From contig NZ_LATL02000178.1 in assembly GCF_000972705.2 (NCBI RefSeq), forward strand, positions 1 through 64,000: a stretch of DNA of 64,000 nucleotides, read 5' to 3'. The position numbers and the translations under genes are program-made. This DNA is from Limnoraphis robusta CS-951 (GTDB taxonomy: Bacteria; Cyanobacteriota; Cyanobacteriia; Cyanobacteriales; Microcoleaceae). This document shows positions 6,172 to 55,860 of the stretch, piece by piece. Position 1 is the stretch's first letter. Every line of letters begins with the position of its first letter. The notes under the pieces are model-generated. The model saw nothing but the letters and a program-made list of their open reading frames with translations. It was not told where the DNA came from and ran no database searches.

Positions 6172-7251
6172 TCAAACCGAATAGCCTTCGGCGTAATGCT
6201 TTAAGTTGAGGCTCGCATTCAAATCGCGATCAATTGATATGTCGCAAGCTTCACAGATGAAAACTCGTTCTTTCAGTGCTATTTCTTGAACGTGACCGCA
6301 ATTTGAACAGGTTTTAGTTGACGGATAGAAGCGATCTGCAAAAACCAGAGTCGAGTCGTACCACGAGGATTTATATTCGACTTGACGACGAATTTCATAA
6401 AGAGCAGAATCGGCAATAGCACCCGCTAACTTGTGATTTTTCAACATCCCAGAAATATTCAAGTCTTCTAACCCGATGACTGCGTGGTTTTTCCATAGCC
6501 ATGAGGTGAGTTTGTGAATTGTATCTTTCCGAATGTTGACAATTCTTTGTGAAGCTCTTGCTAATTTGAGCTTGGCTTTATTCCTGTTGTTTGAACCCTT
6601 TTGCTTTCTCGAGAGTTCGCGCTGAAGTTTTGCCAGATTTTTTTGAGCTTTTTTGTGAGCTGCTGGATTAACAAAAATAGTACCATCTGAACAGGTCGCC
6701 AATGCCTTAACCCCAACATCAACACCCAAATAAACTCTTGATTTAACAGTCTGTTCTGGCTCAAACTCGTAGGCTACAGACAGATACCAAGAATCAGCGA
6801 CTCGACTAATTGTGACTCGTTTAGTCTGAATTTCCGGGAGGGGTTCATAAGTGAATATCCATCCAATAAAAGGAAGCTTCAATCTCTTCCCCGAAAACCT
6901 CATTACCTTGCCACAGTTATCAATCGTAAAGCTATCGTTTCTGCCTTTTTTCTTTAATTTAGGATGTTTGGCAACGCCTTGAAAAAAGCGACTGAAAGCT
7001 TCTCCCAAGTGCATAAAGGCAAATTGATAAACTCTAGAACTTAGCGTTGACTGCCAGGGATAGTTTGGCTTAATGTGATTGGTGTAGAACTTTTTTAGCT
7101 TATTCGTTGAAGGTTTTAAACCCTGCTTGTAAGCTTCATTCCACATCGCTAACGCCCAGTTCCAGACCCACCTAGAATATCCGGCGTGGGTCGCCATTAA
7201 GGTTCTTTGACGGTTGTTAAGTTTGAGTTGGGTTTGAAAGGCTCGTTGCAT
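6172..7251 (-). CDS. tnpB: RNA-guided endonuclease TnpB, apparently intact
   Basis: A 359-residue TnpB of the IS200/IS605 or IS607 superfamily. All catalytic parts are visible: RuvC-I Asp in GVDVGVKA (near residue 176), RuvC-II Glu in GLEDLN (near 262), and RuvC-III Asp in DRDLNAS near 341, with the zinc-ribbon pairs CSNC and CEAC just before it. The N-terminal helix-turn-helix type region (FQTQLKLNNRQ) is complete. No tnpA transposase is adjacent, so mobility would depend on a transposase elsewhere. On the 5' side a hairpin GATCT-GTA-AGATC lies 15-30 bp before the start. It sits between the TPR gene and pfkA. Confidence 0.88.
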   Translation of the reverse strand: MQRAFQTQLKLNNRQRTLMATHAGYSRWVWNWALAMWNEAYKQGLKPSTNKLKKFYTNHIKPNYPWQSTLSSRVYQFAFMHLGEAFSRFFQGVAKHPKLKKKGRNDSFTIDNCGKVMRFSGKRLKLPFIGWIFTYEPLPEIQTKRVTISRVADSWYLSVAYEFEPEQTVKSRVYLGVDVGVKALATCSDGTIFVNPAAHKKAQKNLAKLQRELSRKQKGSNNRNKAKLKLARASQRIVNIRKDTIHKLTSWLWKNHAVIGLEDLNISGMLKNHKLAGAIADSALYEIRRQVEYKSSWYDSTLVFADRFYPSTKTCSNCGHVQEIALKERVFICEACDISIDRDLNASLNLKHYAEGYSV

Positions 7252-14515: not shown

Positions 14516-17500
14516 TTATTTAATAGGAAGTGTAATCTCAAATTGAGTTCCGTGACCTAAAGTCGAATTAACAGAGATTAAACCTTTGTGTTTTTCGACG
14601 ACAATTTGACGTGCGATCGCCAACCCTAATCCAGTACCTTTTCCGACGGCTTTCGTTGTAAACAAGTGATCAAATATTTTGGGTTTTACGGCTTCATTGA
14701 TCCCATGCCCATTATCAGTAATGGTAATTTTAACATTTTCATTTTCGACTGATGTTTTAATAATAATTCGGTTAGGATTTGCTTGAATTTCAGCAAAACT
14801 TCGCCCAATATTCGACTCATCCAACGCATCAATCGCATTAGACAAAATATTCATAAACACCTGATTTAATTGCCCAGGAAAACACTCGACTTTCGGTAAG
14901 TTACCATAGTCTGTGACCACTTCCATTCCGGGACGTTTATCGTTAGCTTTGAGGCGATGCTTGAGAATTAAAAGTGTACTATCGATCCCTTCGTGAATAT
15001 TGAATGGCACTTTATAATCCTTATCAGCCCGAGAAAATGTTCTTAAACTGGTGCTAATATTTTTTAATCGGTCACAAGCGATCAACATTGAATCGAGCAT
15101 CTTGGGTAAATCTTCTAAGCTATAATCTAAGTCAATTTTTTCGGCGTGTTCTTGGATTTCATCACTGGGATTTGGTAGAGATTTTTGATAGAGTTTCAAG
15201 TGTTCAACAAGAGCAGCAATAGTCGGTTGAGCCTGTTTGAGACTAGCAAAAATAAAGCCCAAAGGATTATTCATCTCATGGGCAACACCCGCAACTAAAT
15301 TGCCCAAGGCTGACATTTTCTCACTTTGAACAATTTGTAATTGAGCTTGTTGTAAATCCTGCAATGCTTTTTCTAATTCTTGGGATTTTTGTTGAACAGC
15401 CGCTTCTGCTTTTTTGCGATCATCAATGTCAGTACAAGTGCCAATCCATTCATAAATACTGCCATCTTCTGCCAGGAGTGGCACCCCTCGAACCGCAAAA
15501 TAACGATAGTTTCCATCTGCACGTCGAATGCGATACTCCGTCTGATAAATACTTTTTGTTTCAATGGCATGAGTCCAGTCTTGAACGGTGTGTGAAATAT
15601 CATCAGGATGAATGGCATTCAGCCATCCGGTTCCTTGGACTTCTTCTTCCGTTTGTCCTGTATATTCCATCCAGTGGACTGTATTGGTGTTCTCTCCTGA
15701 AACATTAGCTAACCAAATCATTTGAGAGGTTGCAGTTGCTAGAAAACGATAGCGTTTTTCACTTTGTTCTAATGCCTGGGATTTTTCTTGGGCTTGAGTA
15801 TATAAACGAGCATTTTCTAGAGAAATTGCAGCTTGGGCGCAAAGTATGTTGAGGATTTTAACGCGATCGCTCGTAAATGCACCTGTTGCTAAGTTGTTCT
15901 CTAGATACACCATACCGATCAGCTTGCCCTGATGCAAAATTGGGCTGCACAGAATACTCTTTAAGAGGTGCTTCTGAATGTAAGCATCATTAATAAACTG
16001 CGGATCTATCCTGGCATCAAAGATCACAACGGGTTTCAGGCTGCGTTGAACCGTGTAAATTAAGCGAGTGGGTAACTCTTGGCTGTCTTCAACCGGATGA
16101 GGAAGCGATAAAACTGGACAACAATCAATGCCAGAGACAGCTTGAACCATCAAACCCTGTTCTTCTGATAAAATCAACACAGCTTTATCGGCTCCGGCAT
16201 TTTCGATCACCACTTGCAGCAGAGTAGAGAGCAGTTTGTCTAATTCGATCTCCCTCGAAAGGGTTTGGGAAGCTTTCAAAATAGCCGCTAGATCGAAGGA
16301 ATCCGAGATGCTGCATGAAGAACTCGTCGCAATAGCTGTAAGCGATGCAGTGATGGTTTCTTTGATCGAAAAAGGGGAATGACGCTGCTGCTTCAGGGGG
16401 GTGAGGAGTTGGGGATAACGTTGTTCTAAATCAATCACTTTGGCTTTCGCGCCCCAACGAGTATAACAATAATATGCTTCTTGGATATAAACTTGAGCGA
16501 CCTTTTCTTTACCCCAGTCGAGGTAGAATTTAGCGGCGAGTTCATTCGCCAGCGCTTCTTCTTGGATAAAACCGTTTTCTTTGGCTCCAGAAATAGCGCG
16601 ATCATAATATTCGATAGCTTCTGTTTTCTGACCCAAAACTCGATAACGTTCCGCTTCTACTAAATCAAATTTATGTTGAAAATTCATGGGCGCGTAAGTT
16701 GCCCAGTCTTTGAGTTTTTCTTGGTTATTCGCGATGCTTTCGTTCATCTGTTGCTGTTGCAGGCTTGAACAGTTTCCCAACACCGCTAAATAGGCTAAAG
16801 ACTCATAGAAATGAAAGATGGGTACATAGACAAAAGCAAGTAGAGCATCCAAATATTGTTTAGCTTTCTCTACCTGTTCTACGGCTCCTTCAAAGTCTGA
16901 AAACAGATAGGAAACAACCAATTTATTAATCCAGAACAATCCTAATCCCGTGCGATCGCCCGATGTTTCATGTAAAGGAAGTTGATGCTGTTCATTGTAA
17001 GCAGTACCGCTCAACAGCAGTACGTTATCTCTCTCTCCCATTAAATTGAGCAGAATTTGTTGAGTCAACTGAGAATAAGTCAGAGTTACAGTTTGTCGAA
17101 GCTGATTGAGCGCTTCACAATATCGGCTAATTTCCGATTCCAGTTGTGGTAAATTTTCGCCCGAAAAATAGGCGTTTAAACTGTAGATCCACGCGGAATA
17201 ACCCGCAAAAGCTAAATCCCCTAAGTCTAAACAAGTACAATAGGCATTTTGTAAGGGATTTAAGGTTTCGCGCAGGTGTATTTTCCAATGGCGGGTGTAT
17301 ACATAAACGAGTAATAATGTTTTCCCTTTTAATTCTGAATTTGGATAATGTGATAGCAGATCAAGGGCTAACTGACCGAATTCATACCCTAATTCAACAT
17401 TTCTAATTACACCACACATCAATATCCCATAAGAAGCATAAGCAAAGGGGGAAGTTGACTCATTACCATAAACAACAGATAAATAAACCTTTTTTAAAAC

Positions 17501-20314
17501 CACCAGTAAATACAATTGCGGTTCTGATAAATAAGCGACGGGTGCGGCAGATGTCAAAATGCGAGCGGCTGCTAAAATATTCACATCCGTTGCTTGGGGT
17601 AAATTTAGTAATTCGTTCGGTGAGCGTCCAGCGATCGCATCTGAGACGGTTTTAAAGGCTGTTTCTACATCTTCAGGACTGGGTGTTGCAGGCAGTTCTA
17701 CGCCTAATTGTTGTAAGATAGCGAGTGCTGTGGCGATCGCTTCTGTGAACTGACCCTGAGCCGTTAAAGCCTCAATTTTCACCTGATAAACCCTGACTTG
17801 ATCGAATGGGGTTTTCGCATGGTTGAGGATCTTATTTCCCAACGTCTCCATCTGCTCTAAATCACCGCCCAAATAAGCCGCTTCCGTGGCGATTTGATGC
17901 AGTGTTAGAGTCAATTCATACTGAGTTTGCCAACAGTTTTCAGCTAGTAAATTAATACCCAGTTTAGCATATTTCAGGGCAGCGAGATATGCAGTAGCCG
18001 CTTTTGCCTTGCGACTTGCCATCAAGTTAAACTGTGCTAGTTCCTGACGTTCGGTCAATTGGGTAATTAATTCAACGGCTATATTCAGTTGACTAACGAT
18101 TTCAAAAATGCGGTCTTCGAGGTGAGTTTCTGGTATGTTATTCCGAAGTAATTGTCCAATCTTCAGGTGAACGGGTTGTTTCTCATCGCTGGGAATCAAA
18201 GAATACGCAGCTTGTTGAACGCGATCATGAAGGAATTTATAACTAACAATCTGTGAATGTTCTTGAGAAACCGCTTGATTGACTTCCCCAACATAAAACT
18301 TATAAACTTCACTTTGGGGCAAAATTAACCCTTCTTGCAAGGCTTTCCATAAACTTGCGGCGGTTTCTATTTCTGAGTGTTCTGAAACAATGGCTAAGGT
18401 TGCTAAATCAAATTGATTTCCAATACAAGCCGCTAACTTGAGTACATTTTGGGTTACTTCTGGCAACTTCTGCAACTGCAACGCCATAAATTCAACGACA
18501 TCATCTGTCAGTGCTTGTTGATTGATCTGGGGAAGATCACATTGCCAACATCCCTCTACTAAATTGAACTTGATTAGCCCATCTTGATGTAATGCTTTCA
18601 GAAATTGCGTGGCAAAAAATGGATTTCCTTGAGTTTTTTTATAAACCAATTCAGAAAGCGGCAATGCAAATTTTTCTGTACATTTCAGGGTATCAGCTAC
18701 TAACTGATTGATTTGCCTTTGACTTAAGGGTTTTAACGTAATGGTATGAATGGCGGCAGTTTTTTCGATTTCACTTAAAGTTAACATTAACGGATGGGCT
18801 GGATTCACTTCGTTATCCCGATAGGCCCCTATTAAAAAAAGATGTCCGGTATCAGCCATTAATAACTGCATTAACTTCAGCGAGGCTGAATCAGCCCATT
18901 GCAAATCATCTAAAAATATCACTAATGGATGTTCAGCCGTCGTAAAAACTTGAGTAAATTTTTGAAATAATAAATTAAATCGATTTTGTGCTGCCGTTCC
19001 TGATAATTCTATAGCGGGCGGTTGTTCACCCATAATTCTTTCTAATTCGGGGATGACTTCAATAATCACTTGTCCATTTTCCCCAATGGCTTCTAATATT
19101 TTGCTTTTCCATTGCTGGATTTTAGTCTCGCTTTCTGTTAATAATTGCTCGATTAAATCTCGAAAGGCTTGCACAAATGCACTGAAGGGAATATTTCGTT
19201 GAAATTGGTCATATTTTCCTTTGATAAAATAACCCAGTTTCCTGACAATCGGTTTATGAACTTCGTTGACTACGGCTGTTTTTCCAATCCCAGAAAAACC
19301 AGCGACTAGCATGAGTTCTCCTCTTCCTTCTGGGGGATTACTGACTCTTTCAAAGGCTTGCAGGAGGGTTTTTACTGAGGTTTCTCGTCCATAGAGTTTG
19401 TCGGGGATGATCAAGCGATCGCACAGATCCCGTCGCCCGATTTCAAAAGATTCAATCTCACCCGTTTTTTGAAGTTCAGTTAAACATTTTTCTAAATCAT
19501 ATTTCAGTCCCAATGCACTTTGATAGCGATCTTCGGCATTTTTTGCCATCAATTTTTCGATGATTTCTGATAAGACAGATGGAATTTTTGAATTAATTTC
19601 ATGGACTAAGGGTGATGCTTTGGCAATATGATAATGTACTAACTCCATCGGATCACTAGATTGAAAAGGCAATTCTCTTATGAGTAATTCATAAAACGTT
19701 ACACCTAAAGAATAAAAATCGCTGCGGTAGTCAATTCCCCGGTTCATTCTGCCAGTTTGTTCGGGGGAAAGATAGGCTAAAGTCCCTTCTAGGACGTTAG
19801 GATTTTCGATTTCTGGGGTTTCTTTGGGTAGCAGCGAGGAAATACTGAAATCTATCAGCTTGACTTCTAGGGTTTCGGCTTGAATGAGAATATTGGCAGG
19901 TTTAATATCTTTATGAATCACCCCATATTGATGCAACTGCTGTAGGGTATCTGCGAGTTGAATAGCAATCAAGAGAAATTGCTCTAATGTCAGTGGTTTT
20001 TCCAGGGTAAATCGCTCCAAAGAAATGCCACCAAAATCTTCCATCACCAAAGCATAGCCATTTTGGTAGGGTTCTAAGTTGTAGGGTTTGATAATACCTG
20101 GAATCTCTAAATTTTTGGCAATGGTATACTGATTCCGAAATTGCACCAGTTCACTAAAAGTGGGATATTGCCGTTTTAGAAGCTTAATGACTACAGGGAA
20201 TTTGTCATCAATACGGACGGCTCGATAAACTAATGTTCGACTCCCTAAATAAACGGTTTCGGTAATTTCATAGTTAGGAATATTAACAGTTGTTTGAGAG
20301 TTGGAGTTATTCAT
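14516..20314 (-). CDS. Giant Ser/Thr kinase - AAA ATPase - GAF - PAS - histidine kinase
   Basis: A 1932-residue multidomain signalling protein. Domains in order: Ser/Thr kinase (about 10-270; VIHKDIKPANILI catalytic loop, LIDFSIS in place of DFG-APE start, SPEQTGR), STAND/AAA-type ATPase (about 300-580; Walker A AGFSGIGKTAV, Walker B LVIFLDDLQWAD), a long helical/TPR-like region (about 650-1290), GAF (about 1345-1500), PAS with PAC (about 1520-1640), a phosphoacceptor domain (H1679 in AHEMNNP) and HATPase (N-box ILSNAIDAL, DNGHGI, GTGLGLA). This architecture is typical of filamentous cyanobacteria (HstK-like proteins), where it links phosphorylation of Ser/Thr and His. The input signal is unknown. 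A collapsed paralogue lies immediately upstream. Confidence 0.95.
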   Translation of the reverse strand: MNNSNSQTTVNIPNYEITETVYLGSRTLVYRAVRIDDKFPVVIKLLKRQYPTFSELVQFRNQYTIAKNLEIPGIIKPYNLEPYQNGYALVMEDFGGISLERFTLEKPLTLEQFLLIAIQLADTLQQLHQYGVIHKDIKPANILIQAETLEVKLIDFSISSLLPKETPEIENPNVLEGTLAYLSPEQTGRMNRGIDYRSDFYSLGVTFYELLIRELPFQSSDPMELVHYHIAKASPLVHEINSKIPSVLSEIIEKLMAKNAEDRYQSALGLKYDLEKCLTELQKTGEIESFEIGRRDLCDRLIIPDKLYGRETSVKTLLQAFERVSNPPEGRGELMLVAGFSGIGKTAVVNEVHKPIVRKLGYFIKGKYDQFQRNIPFSAFVQAFRDLIEQLLTESETKIQQWKSKILEAIGENGQVIIEVIPELERIMGEQPPAIELSGTAAQNRFNLLFQKFTQVFTTAEHPLVIFLDDLQWADSASLKLMQLLMADTGHLFLIGAYRDNEVNPAHPLMLTLSEIEKTAAIHTITLKPLSQRQINQLVADTLKCTEKFALPLSELVYKKTQGNPFFATQFLKALHQDGLIKFNLVEGCWQCDLPQINQQALTDDVVEFMALQLQKLPEVTQNVLKLAACIGNQFDLATLAIVSEHSEIETAASLWKALQEGLILPQSEVYKFYVGEVNQAVSQEHSQIVSYKFLHDRVQQAAYSLIPSDEKQPVHLKIGQLLRNNIPETHLEDRIFEIVSQLNIAVELITQLTERQELAQFNLMASRKAKAATAYLAALKYAKLGINLLAENCWQTQYELTLTLHQIATEAAYLGGDLEQMETLGNKILNHAKTPFDQVRVYQVKIEALTAQGQFTEAIATALAILQQLGVELPATPSPEDVETAFKTVSDAIAGRSPNELLNLPQATDVNILAAARILTSAAPVAYLSEPQLYLLVVLKKVYLSVVYGNESTSPFAYASYGILMCGVIRNVELGYEFGQLALDLLSHYPNSELKGKTLLLVYVYTRHWKIHLRETLNPLQNAYCTCLDLGDLAFAGYSAWIYSLNAYFSGENLPQLESEISRYCEALNQLRQTVTLTYSQLTQQILLNLMGERDNVLLLSGTAYNEQHQLPLHETSGDRTGLGLFWINKLVVSYLFSDFEGAVEQVEKAKQYLDALLAFVYVPIFHFYESLAYLAVLGNCSSLQQQQMNESIANNQEKLKDWATYAPMNFQHKFDLVEAERYRVLGQKTEAIEYYDRAISGAKENGFIQEEALANELAAKFYLDWGKEKVAQVYIQEAYYCYTRWGAKAKVIDLEQRYPQLLTPLKQQRHSPFSIKETITASLTAIATSSSCSISDSFDLAAILKASQTLSREIELDKLLSTLLQVVIENAGADKAVLILSEEQGLMVQAVSGIDCCPVLSLPHPVEDSQELPTRLIYTVQRSLKPVVIFDARIDPQFINDAYIQKHLLKSILCSPILHQGKLIGMVYLENNLATGAFTSDRVKILNILCAQAAISLENARLYTQAQEKSQALEQSEKRYRFLATATSQMIWLANVSGENTNTVHWMEYTGQTEEEVQGTGWLNAIHPDDISHTVQDWTHAIETKSIYQTEYRIRRADGNYRYFAVRGVPLLAEDGSIYEWIGTCTDIDDRKKAEAAVQQKSQELEKALQDLQQAQLQIVQSEKMSALGNLVAGVAHEMNNPLGFIFASLKQAQPTIAALVEHLKLYQKSLPNPSDEIQEHAEKIDLDYSLEDLPKMLDSMLIACDRLKNISTSLRTFSRADKDYKVPFNIHEGIDSTLLILKHRLKANDKRPGMEVVTDYGNLPKVECFPGQLNQVFMNILSNAIDALDESNIGRSFAEIQANPNRIIIKTSVENENVKITITDNGHGINEAVKPKIFDHLFTTKAVGKGTGLGLAIARQIVVEKHKGLISVNSTLGHGTQFEITLPIK

Positions 20315-20407: not shown

Positions 20408-21190
20408 TCAAGTGATCACAAATTCTGTTCCTTCTCCCAGTCTAGAGTTGACGTGAATCGTTCCCCGATTCTTTTCAACTACAATTTGACCTGGGATTGC
20501 TAACCCTAACCCTGTTTCTTGTACTAGGGGTTTCGTTGTCAATAAAAATGTATCGGCTATTAAGATGATCAAGCGATCGCACAAATCCCGTCGCCCAATT
20601 TCAAAGTCTTCTATCTCACCCGTTTCTTGAAAATGCACCAACTCCATCGGATCATTGAATTGAAAAGGCAATTCCCCGGTGAGTAATTCGTAAAACGTCA
20701 CACCTAAAGAATAAAAATCACGTTGAGTTTCGGGTTGAATCAAAATATTGGCAGGTTTAATATCTTTATGAATCACCCGACAACGATGCAGCCCGGAGAG
20801 CGTTTCTGTCAGTTGCAGCCCAATGTTAAGAAAATCGACAATCGATAGGGGGGTTAAGTGATGATCAGGATTTGCTGTTGTTGGTTTGAGGTAATCTGCC
20901 AGGGAAATACCGCCCACATCTTCCATAATTAGGGTATAGCTCTGACGATACCGCTCTAACGCTAAGGGTTTAACCACAGTGGGTAGCGCCAGATTTTGAG
21001 CAATCACGTACTGGTTGCGAAATCGGACTAATTCTGCAAAGCTTGGGTATTCCTCTGGCAGCAGTTTGAGGACGACGGGATACTGATCGGTTTCACGAAT
21101 CCCTCGATAGACCAGGGTACCTGACCCAGCATAGAGCTGATTGATAATCCGATAGCCTGGTAAATCGATATTAACGGTATTCATGCTCAA
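20408..21190 (-). pseudogene. Collapsed paralogue of the giant kinase, three in-frame deletions
   Basis: A 260-codon open frame made of four pieces of a protein like its 1932-residue neighbour. Piece 1 matches kinase residues 1-150 (ending in the HKDIKPANILI loop and QPETQ); piece 2 resumes at DFYSLGVTFYELL; piece 3 at TGEIEDFEIGRRDLCDRLII; piece 4 at the last 45 residues of the HATPase (TGLGLAIPGQIVVEK ... GEGTEF). The DFG/activation segment, ATPase, GAF, PAS and phosphoacceptor domains are gone. All junctions keep the frame. It cannot be an active kinase. Either a decaying copy or a retained dominant-negative-like fragment; I favour decay. Confidence 0.82.
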
Positions 21191-31620: not shown

Positions 31621-32491
31621 AATTGAGCGATTTTATCAAAATTGTCGGCAAAAAATACCGGGGAGGAAAGGCTTTCCCCAGTTCAAAAAGTACCAAGTCA
31701 GAGCTTCTGTTGAGTATAAGACATCGGGATGGAAACTTTCAGAAGATAGACGCTATTTAACGTTTTCTGATAAGTTTCAAGCAGGTACATTTAAACTTTG
31801 GGGAAGTCGAGATTTGCACTTCTATCAACTCCAACAAATTAAACGGGTTAGAGTGATTAGAAGACACGATGGGTATTATGCTCAATTTTTAATCGATCAT
31901 ACCAGAGAGGAAAACAAAGAACTCAGTAACAAACAAACAGGTTTGGATGTAGGTCTAAACCATTTCTACACCGATTCTTTTGGCTCACAGATAGACAACC
32001 CCCGCTTTTTAAGAAAAGACGAGCGACGAATTAAAAAGCTGCAACGTCGATTATCTCGAACAAAAAAGGGAAGTCAAAACCGCTCAAAAGCCAGAAATCG
32101 TTTAGGTAGAAAATATCTTAAGGTTTCACGCAGGCGTAATGATTGGGTTTGTAAATTAGCTCAACACGTCATACAGTCTAACGACTTGGTAGCGATAGAA
32201 AACCTACGGATACGCAATCTGGTTAAAAACCATCATTTAGCCAAGTCAATTAACGATGCTGCGAGGGTTCGATTTAGAGAATGGTTAGAATATTTTGGGA
32301 GGGTTTATGGGGTGACGGTGATTGCTGTTGAACCCGCATATACTTCTCAAAACTGCTCAAATTGCGGTGAGAAGGTTGTCAAAACTCTCAGCACCCGGAC
32401 TCACAAATGTCCTCACTGTGGGTATGTAGCAGACCGAGATGAAAATGCCGCAAAAAATATTCTAAAATCTGCACTCAAACAGCTATCAAAT

Positions 32492-32600
32492 CAAGAAACG
32501 GATAAGAAATAGATTAACGGATTAACTTGACTGTAAAACGCATAAATCTAGGCTTCTCACACGTAGCTTAATCCGTTTTTCCGCTTAATATCTGTTTTTA
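32492..32600. mobile_element. 109-bp mini-element, copy B, with AAAT target repeat
   Basis: Same length and same core as copy A (ACGGATTAACTT-ACTGTAAAAC and GCTTAATCCGTT shared), with a more diverged left end (CAAGAAACGGATA) and right end TATCTGTTTTTA. Flanked by AAAT at 32488-32491 and 32601-32604. It separates the last 36 codons of tnpB from the rest. Confidence 0.82.
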
Positions 32601-48889: not shown

Positions 48890-49289
48890 GTGATAAACTT
48901 TTGTAAACAGTGTTACTCTCACATGATAATGGGTTACAAGAGTATTGGGAAAGCCGCCTATTGATCAAAAACCCTAAACAGAGTTTGAGAACAAGTTTGT
49001 TGCATTATCAAACCCATTGACATTTCGGAGATTTGTCGAGTTTTCTATGGAAACCCAAGAATTTAAAATGGGGCTTTACAGAATCTTGACTCGGTTCGCG
49101 AGTCTACGCCACGCACCGCCTTTTCGCTTGCGGTGAACGGATGACATCCTACTTGGAATAACATCTCTAAATTTCTATGTGCGGGACAAATCCACTCGAC
49201 GGCTTTGGTATACTGATAGACAAACATTCAGACTTAACTGTGCTATTCTAAAAATGCTTTCGCAAGCTATTATTTCTTTAGATGAAGAA

Positions 49290-49458
49290 GAATTCAGAAG
49301 TCAGAATACATCCGTCAGAATCAATCAGTGGGGGATTGGGACCCGCCACTGATTGTAGACCGCTAAATCTTCTATTTATCGGGGGTCTTCAACCCAATTA
49401 TTCATCTGCCACTCGCACAGAATTCAATTCTGAATTCTGGCTCCTGACTCCTGAATTC
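49290..49458. repeat. 169-bp imperfect hairpin repeat
   Basis: GAATTCAGAAGTCA (49290-49303) is nearly complementary to TGACTCCTGAATTC (49445-49458; one mismatch), with a further inverted CAGAATTC/GAATTCTG pair near 49415-49440. This AATTC/TGACTTCTGA type of spacer repeat is common in cyanobacteria. It fills much of the 700-bp gap 48923-49618; a 107-codon frame crossing it is not a gene. Upstream of 49280 I see nothing else of note. Confidence 0.6.
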
Positions 49459-49468
49459 TGTTTGATAA

Positions 49469-49614
49469 GCAGTTTGCATTTTTCAATCGCTTTAACCGTT
49501 CGGTCTGGCCTAGTATTTTTAAATATTACAAGGGATATACGCAGTTTGCATTTTCCCTTTGACTTTGAACCTTTCTGTCTAGATAGTATTTTAAAACATT
49601 ATTAAGAGACATAC
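49469..49614 (+). repeat. Diverged tandem duplication of a 72-74-bp leader
   Basis: Unit A (49469-49540) and unit B (49541-49614) both begin GCAGTTTGCATTTT, share TAGTATTTT in the middle and end with AGRGATATAC/AGAGACATAC. Unit B ends five bases before the ATG at 49619. The duplicated block therefore carries the promoter or leader of the next gene. Confidence 0.6.
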
Positions 49615-49618
49615 ATAT

Positions 49619-51868
49619 ATGTATCGGTTCCAGGTAAGGGCGCACACAGAAACCGGAGAATTCATCGGACTCGTCGGTTCGACTCAGGACTTAGGAATGT
49701 GGGACGCAAACAATTGCATACCTCTACGCACCAGTGGTGAAAGTTATCCTTTATGGTGGGCAGACATTGAATTGTTAGAGTCGCCCAATAACCAAAGCAT
49801 TAATTATAAATACGTTCGACTCAGTGCAGACAATAGCGTGGAATGGGAAGCTTGGGGAGCAGACCGTTGGATACCGCTCGAACCCAATCTACCACCGTCC
49901 ACCATTATTGTAGAAGATGGCTGGTTCGGTTACGTCCAGCCTTGTCCTTACGGATATTTTAAAGAACCATTCGCCCAAAAGCCACTCATCAAAGCAGAAC
50001 AAGGTCTAAAAATCGCCGTTGTGGGGAGTTCTGTCGCGATAGGATGCAGTTCATGGTTATTGCGGGGCTGGGCTTGGCATCTGGAAAAAGCATTGCATGA
50101 AAAATATGGTCACATCCTGGTCAATCTATCTGAACTGGGTGCCAATGTTAGCACAACAATTGACAGGTTTCCCTTGATTGTCGCACCCGAACAACCCGAT
50201 ATCGTCATTATTGCCCTATCTCTGGGTAACGAGGGCTTGGCTTATTGTCCACCTCACCAACAACGAGCCGTGCAACGCCGTTATGAAAGAGGATTGCAGC
50301 AACTCGTCAAAATGACCAAAGAATTGGGAGCAATGCCCATTTTAGCAGGACTATACCCAAACGGGGATTATACCTTAGAACATAATTTACTGTTGCGAGA
50401 TACCCACAATCGGATGCTCAGTTGGGGTGTGACCGTACTGAATTGGCTGGATGCTGTAGATGATGGGGAGGGGCGTTGGAAACCGGGGATCTCCTTTGAC
50501 ACGGCTCATCCCAACAGCTTAGGACACCGCCTGATGTACGATCAGATCGATCTTCGCTTATTCGAGATAGATAAAGACAAATTAATTCAAGCAAAACAAC
50601 TCTCGAATCAGAAGCAGGAAGTCCCGATTTATCGCGATAATTGGGGTTTCCATGTATTTGCTTGTCAGGAAGAAAAGAGTTTGCGAGTGATTAATACTTC
50701 AAAACATCCTTACAGCATCACGAGCGACTGGAAAAAACTCCAAACAGCGATTCAACGTCAAGCCGGATTAATCCCTGGTATTTATATCACGAAAACCATT
50801 GAAAAAAATATGATCCCCTTCTTTTGGGTGCGAGAAGATGGGACGATTGAAACGTTAGTTAATATTCCCCCAGGTGCTGACATTGAATATAGTGCAGCTT
50901 TCAATTTCTTGACACCCAAAGTCTCACAAGTTTTACACTACGACGGACTTTTAGGACTGTTGAAAGAAAGCGATTCAACTCTGCGCGTGATCAATGAATC
51001 AGAACACGAATATAACATCCACCCCATGTGGAAAGAAGTCCGCAGCGCCCTTAAACAAATGCCATCGGGTGTTTATGAAGATTTAATAGAACCCGATATG
51101 CCTTTTCGCACGATGATCATTGGCAAAGACGGACTAGAAAGCCGAGTCAAAGTACCCGCTAAATCATCGGTAATTTTTCAATACAAATGTAAATTATCAG
51201 ACATTAGCCGAGTGGGAATTATTCCGTTGGGCGCTCGTTGTGCGGCGAGAATGTTGTTATACAAAATGGAATATGATGGGCCAGCTTTTCCCTTTGATCT
51301 AACCCGAACAACCAATCTTGGAGATGTAGCCGATATGATTGAAACGGGTTTTTCTGATATGTGGAACCCGAACCTTTTACATTACAATCACGACGAAAGG
51401 AGAATCTATCATAGCAAATGGACAGGGCTATCTTTCGCTCATGAAGTGGAAGAAACAGACGACCCCTTAAATGATATGTTACCTATCTATGAACGAATGC
51501 GCGTGCGTTACTCAGCGCGAGCGAAACGCTTTTGGTATACGCTACAACAATGTGACGAAGCCCTGTTTATTCGCGCCGGTATTACTAATCGCGGTTATGT
51601 GATCGATTTGGTCGATAAATTGACAGCAAAATGTCAAGGAAAACCCTTCCGCGTCTTGCTGATTTCTCCCCAATCTTCTGACGAATTTTCAGAACTTCCT
51701 CATGTGCTGCATTATAATTTGGAGTTCAATCCAGATACAATGTATGAAGATTTGGAATATTGGATGCACTGCACAAATATAATGCGAGGAATTCTTGAAT
51801 CCTTGGGAGTATCGAGTAAAAATTTATATTGGTGTCCGCCAAATGCTCCTAAAGAGCAACCGAAATAA
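49619..51868 (+). CDS. CBM20 - SGNH hydrolase - repeat - DUF1796 protein
   Basis: A 749-residue cytoplasmic-looking protein (no signal peptide) with four parts. Residues 1-108: starch-binding CBM20-like domain (GLVGSTQDLGMWD, YPLWWADIEL, NYKYVRL, WEAWG). Residues 130-312: SGNH/GDSL-type hydrolase fold with block I VGSSVAIG (Ser in place of the usual GDS), LSLGNEG for GxN and a clear D294-x-x-H297 (FDTAHP). Residues 341-434 and 435-527: two related copies of an unknown module (LRVIN-S-H-Y-I then GxIETLV/GLESRV). Residues 529-740: DUF1796 papain-like domain (LGARCAARML with C541, FPFDLTRTTN, H608 in SFAHEV). The combination is not one I know. Role unknown. Confidence 0.85.
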   Translation: MYRFQVRAHTETGEFIGLVGSTQDLGMWDANNCIPLRTSGESYPLWWADIELLESPNNQSINYKYVRLSADNSVEWEAWGADRWIPLEPNLPPSTIIVEDGWFGYVQPCPYGYFKEPFAQKPLIKAEQGLKIAVVGSSVAIGCSSWLLRGWAWHLEKALHEKYGHILVNLSELGANVSTTIDRFPLIVAPEQPDIVIIALSLGNEGLAYCPPHQQRAVQRRYERGLQQLVKMTKELGAMPILAGLYPNGDYTLEHNLLLRDTHNRMLSWGVTVLNWLDAVDDGEGRWKPGISFDTAHPNSLGHRLMYDQIDLRLFEIDKDKLIQAKQLSNQKQEVPIYRDNWGFHVFACQEEKSLRVINTSKHPYSITSDWKKLQTAIQRQAGLIPGIYITKTIEKNMIPFFWVREDGTIETLVNIPPGADIEYSAAFNFLTPKVSQVLHYDGLLGLLKESDSTLRVINESEHEYNIHPMWKEVRSALKQMPSGVYEDLIEPDMPFRTMIIGKDGLESRVKVPAKSSVIFQYKCKLSDISRVGIIPLGARCAARMLLYKMEYDGPAFPFDLTRTTNLGDVADMIETGFSDMWNPNLLHYNHDERRIYHSKWTGLSFAHEVEETDDPLNDMLPIYERMRVRYSARAKRFWYTLQQCDEALFIRAGITNRGYVIDLVDKLTAKCQGKPFRVLLISPQSSDEFSELPHVLHYNLEFNPDTMYEDLEYWMHCTNIMRGILESLGVSSKNLYWCPPNAPKEQPK

Positions 51869-52608: not shown

Positions 52609-54093
52609 ATGAACCTCCCACTCATTGATCGCGCCCAACAAAACCCAAACAAAATCGCCATTGTCGCCACTGAAGGAACTTTTACCTATCATAATTTGCT
52701 CCAAACTTCAGCTCAAATTGCTACCAAACTTCTCGAAAATCAAGACGATTTACAAGAACAGCGAGTTGCTTTTCTGATTCCTTCGGGATTTCAGTATGTG
52801 GCGACACAATGGGGAATTTGGCGTGCGGGTGGGATAGCTGTACCTTTGTGTGTTTCCCATCCCAAACCAGAGTTAGACTATGTAATTGCAGATTCAGGCG
52901 CATCAATTATTATTGCACATCCGAGTTTTGAAGCACTATTGCGAGCGATCGCTGAAGATCGAAATATACGATTTATTTTAACATCAGAAACGCTTCCTGA
53001 AAATGTCAGTTTACTTCCAGAAATTGAGATCACTAGACGCGCATTAATCCTTTATACAAGCGGTACAACAGGTAAACCCAAGGGAGTTGTTAGCACACAT
53101 CAAAATATTCAAGCACAAGTAACTAGCTTAGTTTCGGCTTGGGGATGGACGGCAGACGATCGCATTCTACACGTCTTACCTTTACATCACATTCATGGCA
53201 TTATTAACGTGTTAACTTGCGCGTTGTGGAGTGGTGCTGAGTGTCATATTTTACCGAAATTTGATGCAGAAATCGTTGGCGATCGCATTAGCCAAGGTGA
53301 CTTAACTTTATTTATGGCAGTACCCACAATTTATGTCAAGTTAATAGCCGCTTGGGAAAATTCCGATCGCGATCGCCAACAAAAAATCTCCTCGGGTTGT
53401 GCTAAAATGCGCTTGATGGTTTCAGGATCAGCCGCTTTACCCGTTCAAGTCTTAAAAAAATGGCAAACCATTAGCGGTCATTTTCTGTTAGAACGGTACG
53501 GAATGACTGAAATCGGCATGGCTTTATCTAATCCTTTGCAGGGTGAAAGATTAGCAGGATTTGTCGGGAAACCTTTGCCACAAGTCGAAGTTAGATTAGT
53601 CGATGAAAGCGGAGAATTAGTCACTCCAGGAACACCGGGAGAAATTCAAGTTAAAGGATCAACTGTGTTTCTTGAATATTGGCAAAAACCCGAAGCGACT
53701 ATAAAAGCATTTCGCGACGGTTGGTTTTGTACAGGTGATTTAGCCGTATTAGAAAATGAGAACTATCGCATTTTAGGTCGAATCAGTGTAGATATTATCA
53801 AAACTGGCGGTTATAAAGTTTCAGCTTTGGAAATTGAGGAAGTCTTACGAACTCATTGTGATATTCAAGATTGTGCAGTTGTGGGAGTGGAAGATGCCGA
53901 ATGGGGTGAAAGAGTTTGTGCCGCTTTAGTCTTAAAATCAGGAACTGATTTAACCTTAGAAACCCTCAGAAGTTGGGCGAAAGAACAATTGGCTACCTAC
54001 AAAGTTCCGAGCAAAATTATAGCGGTGGAAGAATTACCGCGCAACGCGATGGGAAAAGTAACCAAGCCTAACGTCGCCAAGCTATTTCACTGA
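52609..54093 (+). CDS. AMP-dependent acyl-CoA ligase, malonyl-CoA synthetase-like
   Basis: A 494-residue ANL-superfamily ligase that activates an acid to acyl-AMP then acyl-CoA. Motifs: LYTSGTTGKPKGV (P-loop, near residue 148), LPLHHIHG near 188, YGMTEIGMALSN near 299, the GWFCTGDLA motif near 371 and the Lys in RNAMGKVTKPNV near 484. The overall pattern (LHVLPLHHIHGIINVLTCALWSGAECHILPKFD) is close to malonyl-CoA synthetases/ACSF3-like enzymes, but other short or medium acids are possible. No pathway partner is adjacent. Confidence 0.85.
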   Translation: MNLPLIDRAQQNPNKIAIVATEGTFTYHNLLQTSAQIATKLLENQDDLQEQRVAFLIPSGFQYVATQWGIWRAGGIAVPLCVSHPKPELDYVIADSGASIIIAHPSFEALLRAIAEDRNIRFILTSETLPENVSLLPEIEITRRALILYTSGTTGKPKGVVSTHQNIQAQVTSLVSAWGWTADDRILHVLPLHHIHGIINVLTCALWSGAECHILPKFDAEIVGDRISQGDLTLFMAVPTIYVKLIAAWENSDRDRQQKISSGCAKMRLMVSGSAALPVQVLKKWQTISGHFLLERYGMTEIGMALSNPLQGERLAGFVGKPLPQVEVRLVDESGELVTPGTPGEIQVKGSTVFLEYWQKPEATIKAFRDGWFCTGDLAVLENENYRILGRISVDIIKTGGYKVSALEIEEVLRTHCDIQDCAVVGVEDAEWGERVCAALVLKSGTDLTLETLRSWAKEQLATYKVPSKIIAVEELPRNAMGKVTKPNVAKLFH

Positions 54094-54640: not shown

Positions 54641-54812
54641 TGAAGAAGACAAAGATATAATTTCCAGAAGGCACTATGAGACAAATAACCCCTTTGGATT
54701 GGCTAGGTTTGTGCCGTGAGGAACTTCTTACCCGGAGAAAGACTCAAAAATACTGAGCCTGCCATCTAGAGTGGGTAGCCATAAGTTTCTCAGCTTGGAG
54801 ACTTTTAATGAG

Positions 54813-55316
54813 ATGACCAATTTTTCACGGGACCGTGTAGATCTGCACATCAACTCAAGACTGAGCCAGTTTTTACTGGTCAGCGTTTTTTCTATGATAG
54901 CCGCGATCGCAGGAGTTGTACCCAATCTAGCAACGCTACCGTCTACATTCACTCAGACTCCCGTTGCATCGGCTCAGTCGAGTCAGGAGTTCAGCGAGGG
55001 GGAAATTCTCAACTATGCTCGTGCTGTTTTAGCCATTGAACCCAAGCGTCAACAAACTTATGACGAAATTCGACAAATCATCGGTGAATCTGTTCCGGTG
55101 GTGGTTTGTAATGAAACGGGTAGCCTTAACCGCTTAAAGCAAGACGTGCGGGTGTTGGCGACAAATTACTGTTCTCACGCCAAAAAAATGATTGAAGACA
55201 ATAACCTCACCGTTGCGAGATTCAACGAAATTACTCGCAAACAACAAAGCGATGCTCAACTGCAACAACGAATTCAAGCCGCGTTGGTCCAACTGCAACA
55301 ACCCCCTAGAAACTAA
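54813..55316 (+). CDS. DUF4168 domain protein, copy 1
   Basis: A 167-residue exported protein. The N-terminal membrane/signal helix (FLLVSVFSMIAAIAGVV, about 19-35) leads to a DUF4168 domain (FSEGEILNYARAVLAIEPKRQQTYDEIRQII...VARFNEITRKQQSDAQLQQRIQAAL). Two cysteines (VVVCNETGS, NYCSHAK) may form a disulphide. Start ATG at 54813 preferred over the upstream GTG at 54771 because a purine-rich GGAGAC lies before it. Function of DUF4168 unknown. Tandem paralogue 50 bp downstream. Confidence 0.85.
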   Translation: MTNFSRDRVDLHINSRLSQFLLVSVFSMIAAIAGVVPNLATLPSTFTQTPVASAQSSQEFSEGEILNYARAVLAIEPKRQQTYDEIRQIIGESVPVVVCNETGSLNRLKQDVRVLATNYCSHAKKMIEDNNLTVARFNEITRKQQSDAQLQQRIQAALVQLQQPPRN

Positions 55317-55365
55317 AGGGCTTTGTTTTCTCGACTCTATTCTCCCTATCTATAATACACTTGGT

Positions 55366-55860
55366 ATGAAAACTCACACTCAACTGTCCTCTCTAAACTG
55401 GTATCACGCCATCTCCAAAACTCTCGGCGTCAGCGTTATTTCTATCGTCAGTCTGTTGAGTGGGTTGACTCCCAGCCTCTCAGGACAAGATCTGAGCTTT
55501 GGTGTGAGCGCTGTTCACGCTCAAGTCAATCAAAACTTTAGCAACGAAGAAATCACCAACTATGCTCGTGTGGTTCTCGCTCTGGAGTCGAGAAGATATC
55601 AAGTATTCAACGAGATTAAAAAAATAGTTGGCGAAGTTCCTCGCATTGTTTGTGATGAACCCGGTAGTATTAACGCCCTTCCCGGAAATGCGCCCCAACT
55701 GGCGGTGAGTTACTGTGATCAAGCCAAGCAAGTGATTGAAGCTAGAGGCTTGACTGTGACTCGGTTTAATGAAATCACCCTTCGCCAACAAAATGATCCT
55801 CAATTTAGGCAAAAAATTCAAGCCGAAATCTTACGACTGATGGAATCTTCTAAACCATAA
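55366..55860 (+). CDS. DUF4168 domain protein, copy 2
   Basis: A 164-residue exported protein with a signal segment (TLGVSVISIVSLLSGLTPSLS, about 16-36) and a DUF4168 domain (FSNEEITNYARVVLALESRRYQVFNEIKKIV...TRFNEITLRQQNDPQFRQKIQAEILRLM). Two conserved cysteines are in the same places as in copy 1. The frame is open 174 bp further 5' into the previous gene, but only the ATG at 55366 fits. A duplicated gene pair. Confidence 0.86.
   Translation: MKTHTQLSSLNWYHAISKTLGVSVISIVSLLSGLTPSLSGQDLSFGVSAVHAQVNQNFSNEEITNYARVVLALESRRYQVFNEIKKIVGEVPRIVCDEPGSINALPGNAPQLAVSYCDQAKQVIEARGLTVTRFNEITLRQQNDPQFRQKIQAEILRLMESSKP

Follow-up and report, generated by a model that had tools for sequence, protein, structure and literature searches.

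A conserved cyanobacterial protein that joins a starch-binding domain, an SGNH hydrolase part and DUF1796: a possible glycogen-docked esterase

What use does a cyanobacterium have for a single polypeptide in which a starch-binding domain, an SGNH hydrolase part, a duplicated module and a domain named as a cysteine peptidase follow one another? The question is raised by a gene at 49619..51868 (+ strand) of the 64,000-nucleotide stretch of Limnoraphis robusta CS-951 analysed here (contig NZ_LATL02000178.1, positions 1 to 64,000; hereafter the window). The open reading frame (ORF) starts with ATG and encodes 749 amino acids (aa) in the order CBM20, SGNH, two repeats resembling the C-domain of GH13 amylases, and DUF1796. 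The fusion is a conserved cyanobacterial family and is not rare, and the analysis suggests that the many cyanobacteria which carry it may edit chemical groups on their storage glucan. The reading that we prefer, held tentatively and at somewhat less than even confidence, is that of a glycogen-docked esterase (the SGNH part) joined to a DUF1796 part that would modify glycans by a Cys/His mechanism and would not be a protease.

Architecture and spread of the fusion

An earlier note, made from the letters of the window, had proposed this domain order and called it unfamiliar. The order proved to be real, since three Pfam domains score above their curated cut-offs and the duplication is recovered by profile-profile alignment. 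CBM_20 was matched at residues 3-86 (E 7.2e-19, 67.8 bits, cut-off 23.3), Lipase_GDSL_2 at 134-305 (E 1.4e-13, 52.2 bits, cut-off 32.9) and DUF1796 at 534-682 (E 2.8e-8, 34.2 bits, cut-off 23), and the terminal domains that the note had placed at residues 1-108 and 529-740 are thus both significant. The unfamiliarity holds as far as a family name is concerned: neither Pfam nor NCBIfam has a model for the whole architecture, and the database names of homologues vary ('lipase', 'DUF1796 family putative cysteine peptidase', 'glycoside hydrolase, starch-binding protein'). Among the literature matches listed, no title or abstract opening describes the fusion, and a literature search on DUF1796 found nothing. 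The unfamiliarity does not extend to rarity.

A search of 5.8 billion protein sequences returned 492 matches, and the best 120 of them, the window protein included, were examined. According to a precomputed domain table all three Pfam domains are present in 118 of these 120, the remaining two being P0017, which lacks the DUF1796 call, and P0060, which lacks that of CBM20. Wherever an organism name was given among the best 120, it was cyanobacterial. Further, 386 genomes of the phylum were surveyed by scoring two candidates in each. This gave the whole protein in 25 genomes, the protein as two genes in one (G145), broken pieces only in two (G169 and G120) and matches to one domain only in 38. 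A single TAA inside the match was reported for six of the 25 whole-protein rows; five of the six were re-read, leaving out G284, and all five proved to have an ORF without interruption over at least query residues 1-742. In G145 the natural split separates a CBM20-SGNH gene from a repeat-DUF1796 gene, and a homologue of the acyl-CoA ligase described below lies directly upstream on the same strand, so that the locus (L057) reads ligase, CBM20-SGNH and repeat-DUF1796 as three adjoining genes on one strand. A 440-aa protein, P0161, has CBM20 and DUF1796 without SGNH in the precomputed Pfam calls, which may be a true deletion or an assembly artefact.

The start Met is common to most of the 40 aligned homologues, with short extensions in a few. 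This shared Met and the start of CBM20 at residue 3 make a signal peptide unlikely, in agreement with the earlier note, and the protein is probably soluble and cytoplasmic.

The CBM20, SGNH and repeat parts

The starch/glycogen-binding domain CBM20 spans residues 1-108 (49619..49942, + strand). In an alignment with the glucoamylase domain 1ac0, its residues W28, K64 and W76 occupy the positions of W35, K70 and W82, which we take to form binding site 1. In the 40-row alignment W76 is invariant and W28 and K64 are kept in at least 90% of the sequences. The CBM20 profile also matches the CBM20 of 23 cyanobacterial amylase-type sequences (E 2e-22). The retention of the site-1 aromatics and of the lysine points to a putative starch- or glycogen-binding function. 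Apart from the fusion, the CBM20 matches of the 386-genome survey are mostly frames of roughly 650 aa; the 23 that were read (L005, L033, L034, L094-L113) appear by eye to be GH13-type amylases with a C-terminal CBM20.

The SGNH domain covers residues 128-318 (50000..50572, + strand). Its model adopts an SGNH hydrolase fold, which supports, for residues 130-312, the hydrolase that the earlier note had supposed. The block residues are present, namely Ser in block I, Gly in block II, Asn in block III and D-x-x-H in block V. All 40 aligned rows have G136-S137-S138, G174, N204 and H297, whereas D294 is found in at least 90% of them, one row having N at this position; S138, G174, N204, D294 and H297 are kept in all 26 loci sequences that have the domain. 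The D294-x-x-H297 dyad and the replacement of GDS by GSS, both already noticed in the window, are therefore traits of the family. The GSS of block I and the GNE of block III take the place of the usual GDS and GxND. The closest folds in the PDB are those of the acetylxylan esterases PbeAcXE (7tog) and CspAcXE (7toj), together with a polyvinyl-alcohol esterase. PbeAcXE and CspAcXE, SGNH carbohydrate acetylesterases that we assume to belong to family CE20, share 20-21% identity with the window protein in the aligned part; unlike them, the window protein carries CBM20 ahead of the SGNH domain, and the GH13-C-like repeats and DUF1796 behind it. The fold and the conserved residues are consistent with a putative ester hydrolase.

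The duplicated module consists of repeat A (residues 333-431; 50615..50911, + strand) and repeat B (residues 432-527; 50912..51199, + strand). The duplication claimed by the earlier note for residues 341-527 is real: in a single profile-profile comparison the two repeats matched each other with a probability of 98.1 (E 1.2e-13). The same note had called the module unknown, and indeed Pfam, at E up to 1, has no match to residues 341-527. This label no longer applies, as the models of both repeats show a beta-sandwich that resembles, in a comparison with PDB folds, the C-domain of GH13 amylases and CGTases. A GH13 C-domain-like fold is thus likely for the module, as judged from the models. The cyanobacterial GH13-type alpha-amylases with domain C and CBM20 (L005, L033 and L034, named by eye) share with the window protein a homologous CBM20 and, by fold, the domain-C-like repeats. 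In contrast to these amylases, the window protein lacks the GH13 catalytic barrel (no GH13 match in the Pfam scan) and its repeats have no profile similarity to domain C.

Relatives of the first half occur in eukaryote data. A search with the split CBM20-SGNH gene of G145 gave 46 matches, among them the EukProt protein P0258 (46% identity), whose name looks to us like Cyanophora, and the MMETSP transcript P0257 (45% identity), both of which have CBM20-SGNH without DUF1796. In a tree of CBM20-SGNH sequences whose rooting is uncertain, seven of the eight rows marked as possibly eukaryotic, that is P0257 and six metagenome proteins, form one starred clade. The eighth, P0258, branches apart on the same side of the tree, with two long outgroup rows in between. 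A eukaryote source label is carried, among the eight, by P0257 and P0258 only. By eye, P0257 and several of P0253, P0254, P0259, P0263 and P0264 end shortly past a stretch like repeat A, and an RRRSSL-type linker is seen in P0257 and several metagenome relatives. A CBM20-SGNH half in eukaryote data would connect the fusion to starch metabolism in algae.

DUF1796 and the neighbouring ligase

The DUF1796 domain (residues 529-743; 51203..51847, + strand) belongs to a family that was matched by all 12 members scanned. The 40-row alignment and the 27 loci sequences show no substitution at C541, D560 or H608; among 52 DUF1796 proteins, down to 19% identity, this still holds for D560 and H608, and at least 90% have C541. 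Strands and helices alternate in the predicted secondary structure, which looks alpha/beta and in which C541 lies five residues past the first strand. The earlier note had described this part as papain-like. The conservation of C541 and H608 upholds its Cys/His pair, whereas the papain-like identity, inherited from the Pfam name 'putative papain-like cysteine peptidase', is doubtful because many relatives adjoin glycan-synthesis genes and because strands and helices alternate. No significant sequence match linked DUF1796 to a characterised papain-like family, either with the 12 members in Pfam or with the domain profile in the PDB. The DUF1796 profile had no PDB sequence match at E up to 10, and a longer profile that holds the domain weakly matched, beyond the DUF1796 core, a viral nonstructural protein 2 (E 0.019). 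With E up to 1 allowed, Pfam assigned the 12 members to no peptidase family apart from DUF1796 itself, the other families being PilJ_C, NB-ARC and DUF2540 with one member each. When DUF1796 and the SGNH domain of the fusion were aligned as profiles, no sequence link emerged. A library of viral structures yielded eight matches with E not above 0.001. Seven of them come from giant viruses and bear the name papain-like peptidase; as DUF1796-like proteins they are structural matches to the window protein. The eighth is a 615-aa protein named glycosyltransferase. Viral contigs gave 17 pattern matches, none of them a relative by tblastn.

DUF1796 also exists outside the fusion. It was matched in 80 of 373 genomes, within the fusion in 24 (split in G145), and the remaining matches are mostly shorter frames in genomes that measure 1.7-2.5 Mb; an exception is G370, in which the frame has 267 aa and the genome 4.2 Mb. 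These proteins of small-genome relatives are mostly stand-alone and share the pattern of Cys, PFD and His with the window protein. The surroundings of 26 stand-alone loci were inspected (23 among the best-scoring of the 373-genome survey and three from the 386-genome survey), one of which had no neighbouring ORF; in the other 25, 40 flanking ORFs picked by hand were scanned, with ten matches to GT2, six to DegT/DnrJ/EryC1, three to GT-D and one to GT8. By this hand-picked count, which has no background rate, a gene of one of these four types lies beside DUF1796 in 15 of the 25 loci. L068 is a GT2-DUF1796 fusion and L081 adjoins a sulfotransferase. These glycan neighbours of many stand-alone genes favour the reading of DUF1796 as glycan-modifying. 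An analogy is offered by the capsule enzyme WcbI, which holds acetyl-CoA between Cys14 and His201 (PMC4104973). As in DUF1796, the Cys there lies close to where the first beta strand ends and has a distant His as partner; the likeness is one of analogy, as none of the 12 DUF1796 members matched the Pfam family of WcbI (PF18588) at E up to 1. A search for WcbI genes in 146 cyanobacterial genomes gave no match, with controls equally silent, so that this absence shows nothing.

The next gene downstream of the fusion (52609..54093, + strand) encodes an AMP-forming acyl-CoA ligase similar to malonyl-CoA synthetases. The latter are its closest solved structures (E 1e-80) and share with it the motif ERYGMTE. 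Its best family is the NCBIfam malonyl-CoA synthase model PRK07514, at 387.3 bits and thus below the cut-off of 558. When up to four candidates were scored in each of the 373 genomes, the ligase gene was found at E 1e-200 in 16, all among the 24 with the fusion (Fisher p 1.5e-22, uncorrected for shared ancestry). A second survey of 51 chosen genomes, at E 1e-120 and with up to 30 candidates scored, found it in three of ten fusion genomes, in neither of two with a broken fusion and in none of 39 without the fusion. In total, 19 of 26 fusion genomes have the ligase. The two genomes with broken pieces of the fusion (G169:C3:6269010-6269308 and G120:C100:24161-24597) lack the ligase at E 1e-120, as if both had been lost together.

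The neighbours in 27 fusion loci were compared as clusters, not as individually annotated genes. Two clusters recur in at least four loci: the ligase, of which 10 of the 27 have a close homologue no more than five genes from the fusion, in varying order and strand, and a gene that by eye resembles a valine-tRNA ligase (four loci), which is read as shared synteny. No glycogen genes were found among the seven window neighbours scanned. A 107-aa ORF upstream of the fusion gene (49282-49605) was set aside.

Possible functions, and other features of the window

What we infer here, namely glucan binding in vivo, an esterase activity, its acyl group, substrate and direction, and the role of DUF1796, could be combined as follows. 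CBM20 would dock the cytoplasmic protein on the storage alpha-glucan, glycogen, probably with help from the two repeats. The SGNH half would cleave acyl esters off the glucan or off sugars bound to it, the DUF1796 half would modify the same or a linked sugar through its Cys/His mechanism, and the ligase suggests that an acyl-CoA, perhaps malonyl-CoA, takes part. Besides the conserved residues, the modelled folds and the glycan neighbours, the natural split in G145, the CBM20-SGNH proteins P0257 and P0258 that lack DUF1796 and the viral match named glycosyltransferase count in favour of this reading. The new enzyme class that the earlier note had inferred would at most be a candidate. A bolder form, which we consider improbable, is a reversible O-acyl (perhaps malonyl) mark on glycogen, for which the ligase would make the acyl-CoA, DUF1796 would transfer the group and SGNH would erase it, with the eraser half also present in some algae. 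Several observations weigh against a glycogen-docked esterase with a glycan-modifying DUF1796. To our knowledge, acylated glycogen has not been described in cyanobacteria. The ligase is absent from seven of the 26 fusion genomes, and 10 of the other 19 encode it at a distance from the fusion, so that it is neither needed in every genome nor consistently linked. Because the hhalign alignment of the repeats with the 23 amylase-type sequences fails (probability 1.4 for A and 0.2 for B), their likeness to domain C is one of fold, and many of the PDB fold-match rows behind it are mutants of the same few enzymes. The PDB rows listed for the models barely cover DUF1796 and none covers it alone. As for the neighbours of stand-alone DUF1796, 10 of the 25 loci have no such glycan gene, three of the 15 that do are near-copies (L067, L073, L075), and the loci are mostly best-scoring matches.

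Sequence comparison also speaks for another kind of enzyme. At E up to 1, the sole PDB sequence matches of the SGNH part are of TesA type (4jgg, E 1.7e-5; 1jrl, E 0.084), with no carbohydrate esterase among them, and a weak NCBIfam match to TesA (PRK10528) was obtained at E 0.0029, or E 5.4e-5 with the split gene of G145. These matches and the co-occurring ligase would fit a TesA-type acyl-CoA or acyl-ester hydrolase tethered to glycogen, cleaving malonyl-CoA or another acyl-CoA made by the ligase, with the glucan-binding parts serving only to localise or regulate it and to couple carbon storage to the supply of fatty-acid precursors. TesA (thioesterase I/lysophospholipase L1), which shares the SGNH fold and is the best PDB sequence match, is a single-domain enzyme, whereas the window protein has several parts and a glucan-binding domain; we regard this alternative as unlikely, if deserving of real weight. 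Somewhat lower still do we place a different target, an alpha-glucan-like polymer such as a cytoplasmic precursor of sheath or envelope polysaccharide, on which the protein would act in place of glycogen. It is favoured by the many stand-alone DUF1796 genes that adjoin genes for GT2, GT-D or DegT-type aminotransferases, an arrangement like that of loci for surface glycans. The match of CBM20 to the CBM20 of cyanobacterial amylase-type proteins argues in the opposite direction, as does the finding that, besides the two named, no cluster of neighbours recurs in four or more of the 27 fusion loci. Least probable of all, in our judgement, is that DUF1796 is a genuine papain-like peptidase with proteins bound to glycogen as its targets, the esterase half serving to trim a lipid or acyl modification. 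The Pfam name, the conserved C541 and H608 and a non-significant match of the longer profile (E 0.93) to pseudomurein endoisopeptidase, presumably a cysteine peptidase, agree with it. Against it stand the silence of the DUF1796 profile in the PDB and of the 12 members in other peptidase families, the alternation of strands and helices in the models and the glycan neighbours in 15 of 25 stand-alone loci.

If the glycogen-docked esterase is the true reading, bacteria would decorate their glycogen chemically and edit it, in a way comparable to the phosphorylation of plant starch, and the fusion would provide a tractable gene for testing such editing. The analysis also calls into question a widely used database label, that of DUF1796 as a peptidase, ties a malonyl-CoA-synthetase-like ligase to a glucan-binding protein and gives the repeat a likely fold.

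Other features of the window were noticed by eye. The 260-aa ORF at 20408-21190 (- strand) looks like an internally shortened relative of the adjoining gene at 14516-20314 (- strand), which encodes a 1932-aa kinase/ATPase/histidine-kinase protein; the start and end stretches of the latter resemble the short ORF, in which the middle is missing. The ORFs at 54771-55316 and 55192-55860 (+ strand) overlap in tandem and encode similar proteins, the first being DUF4168 according to Pfam. Finally, TnpB/OrfB-type transposon proteins appear to be encoded at 6172-7251 (- strand) and 31814-32512 (+ strand).
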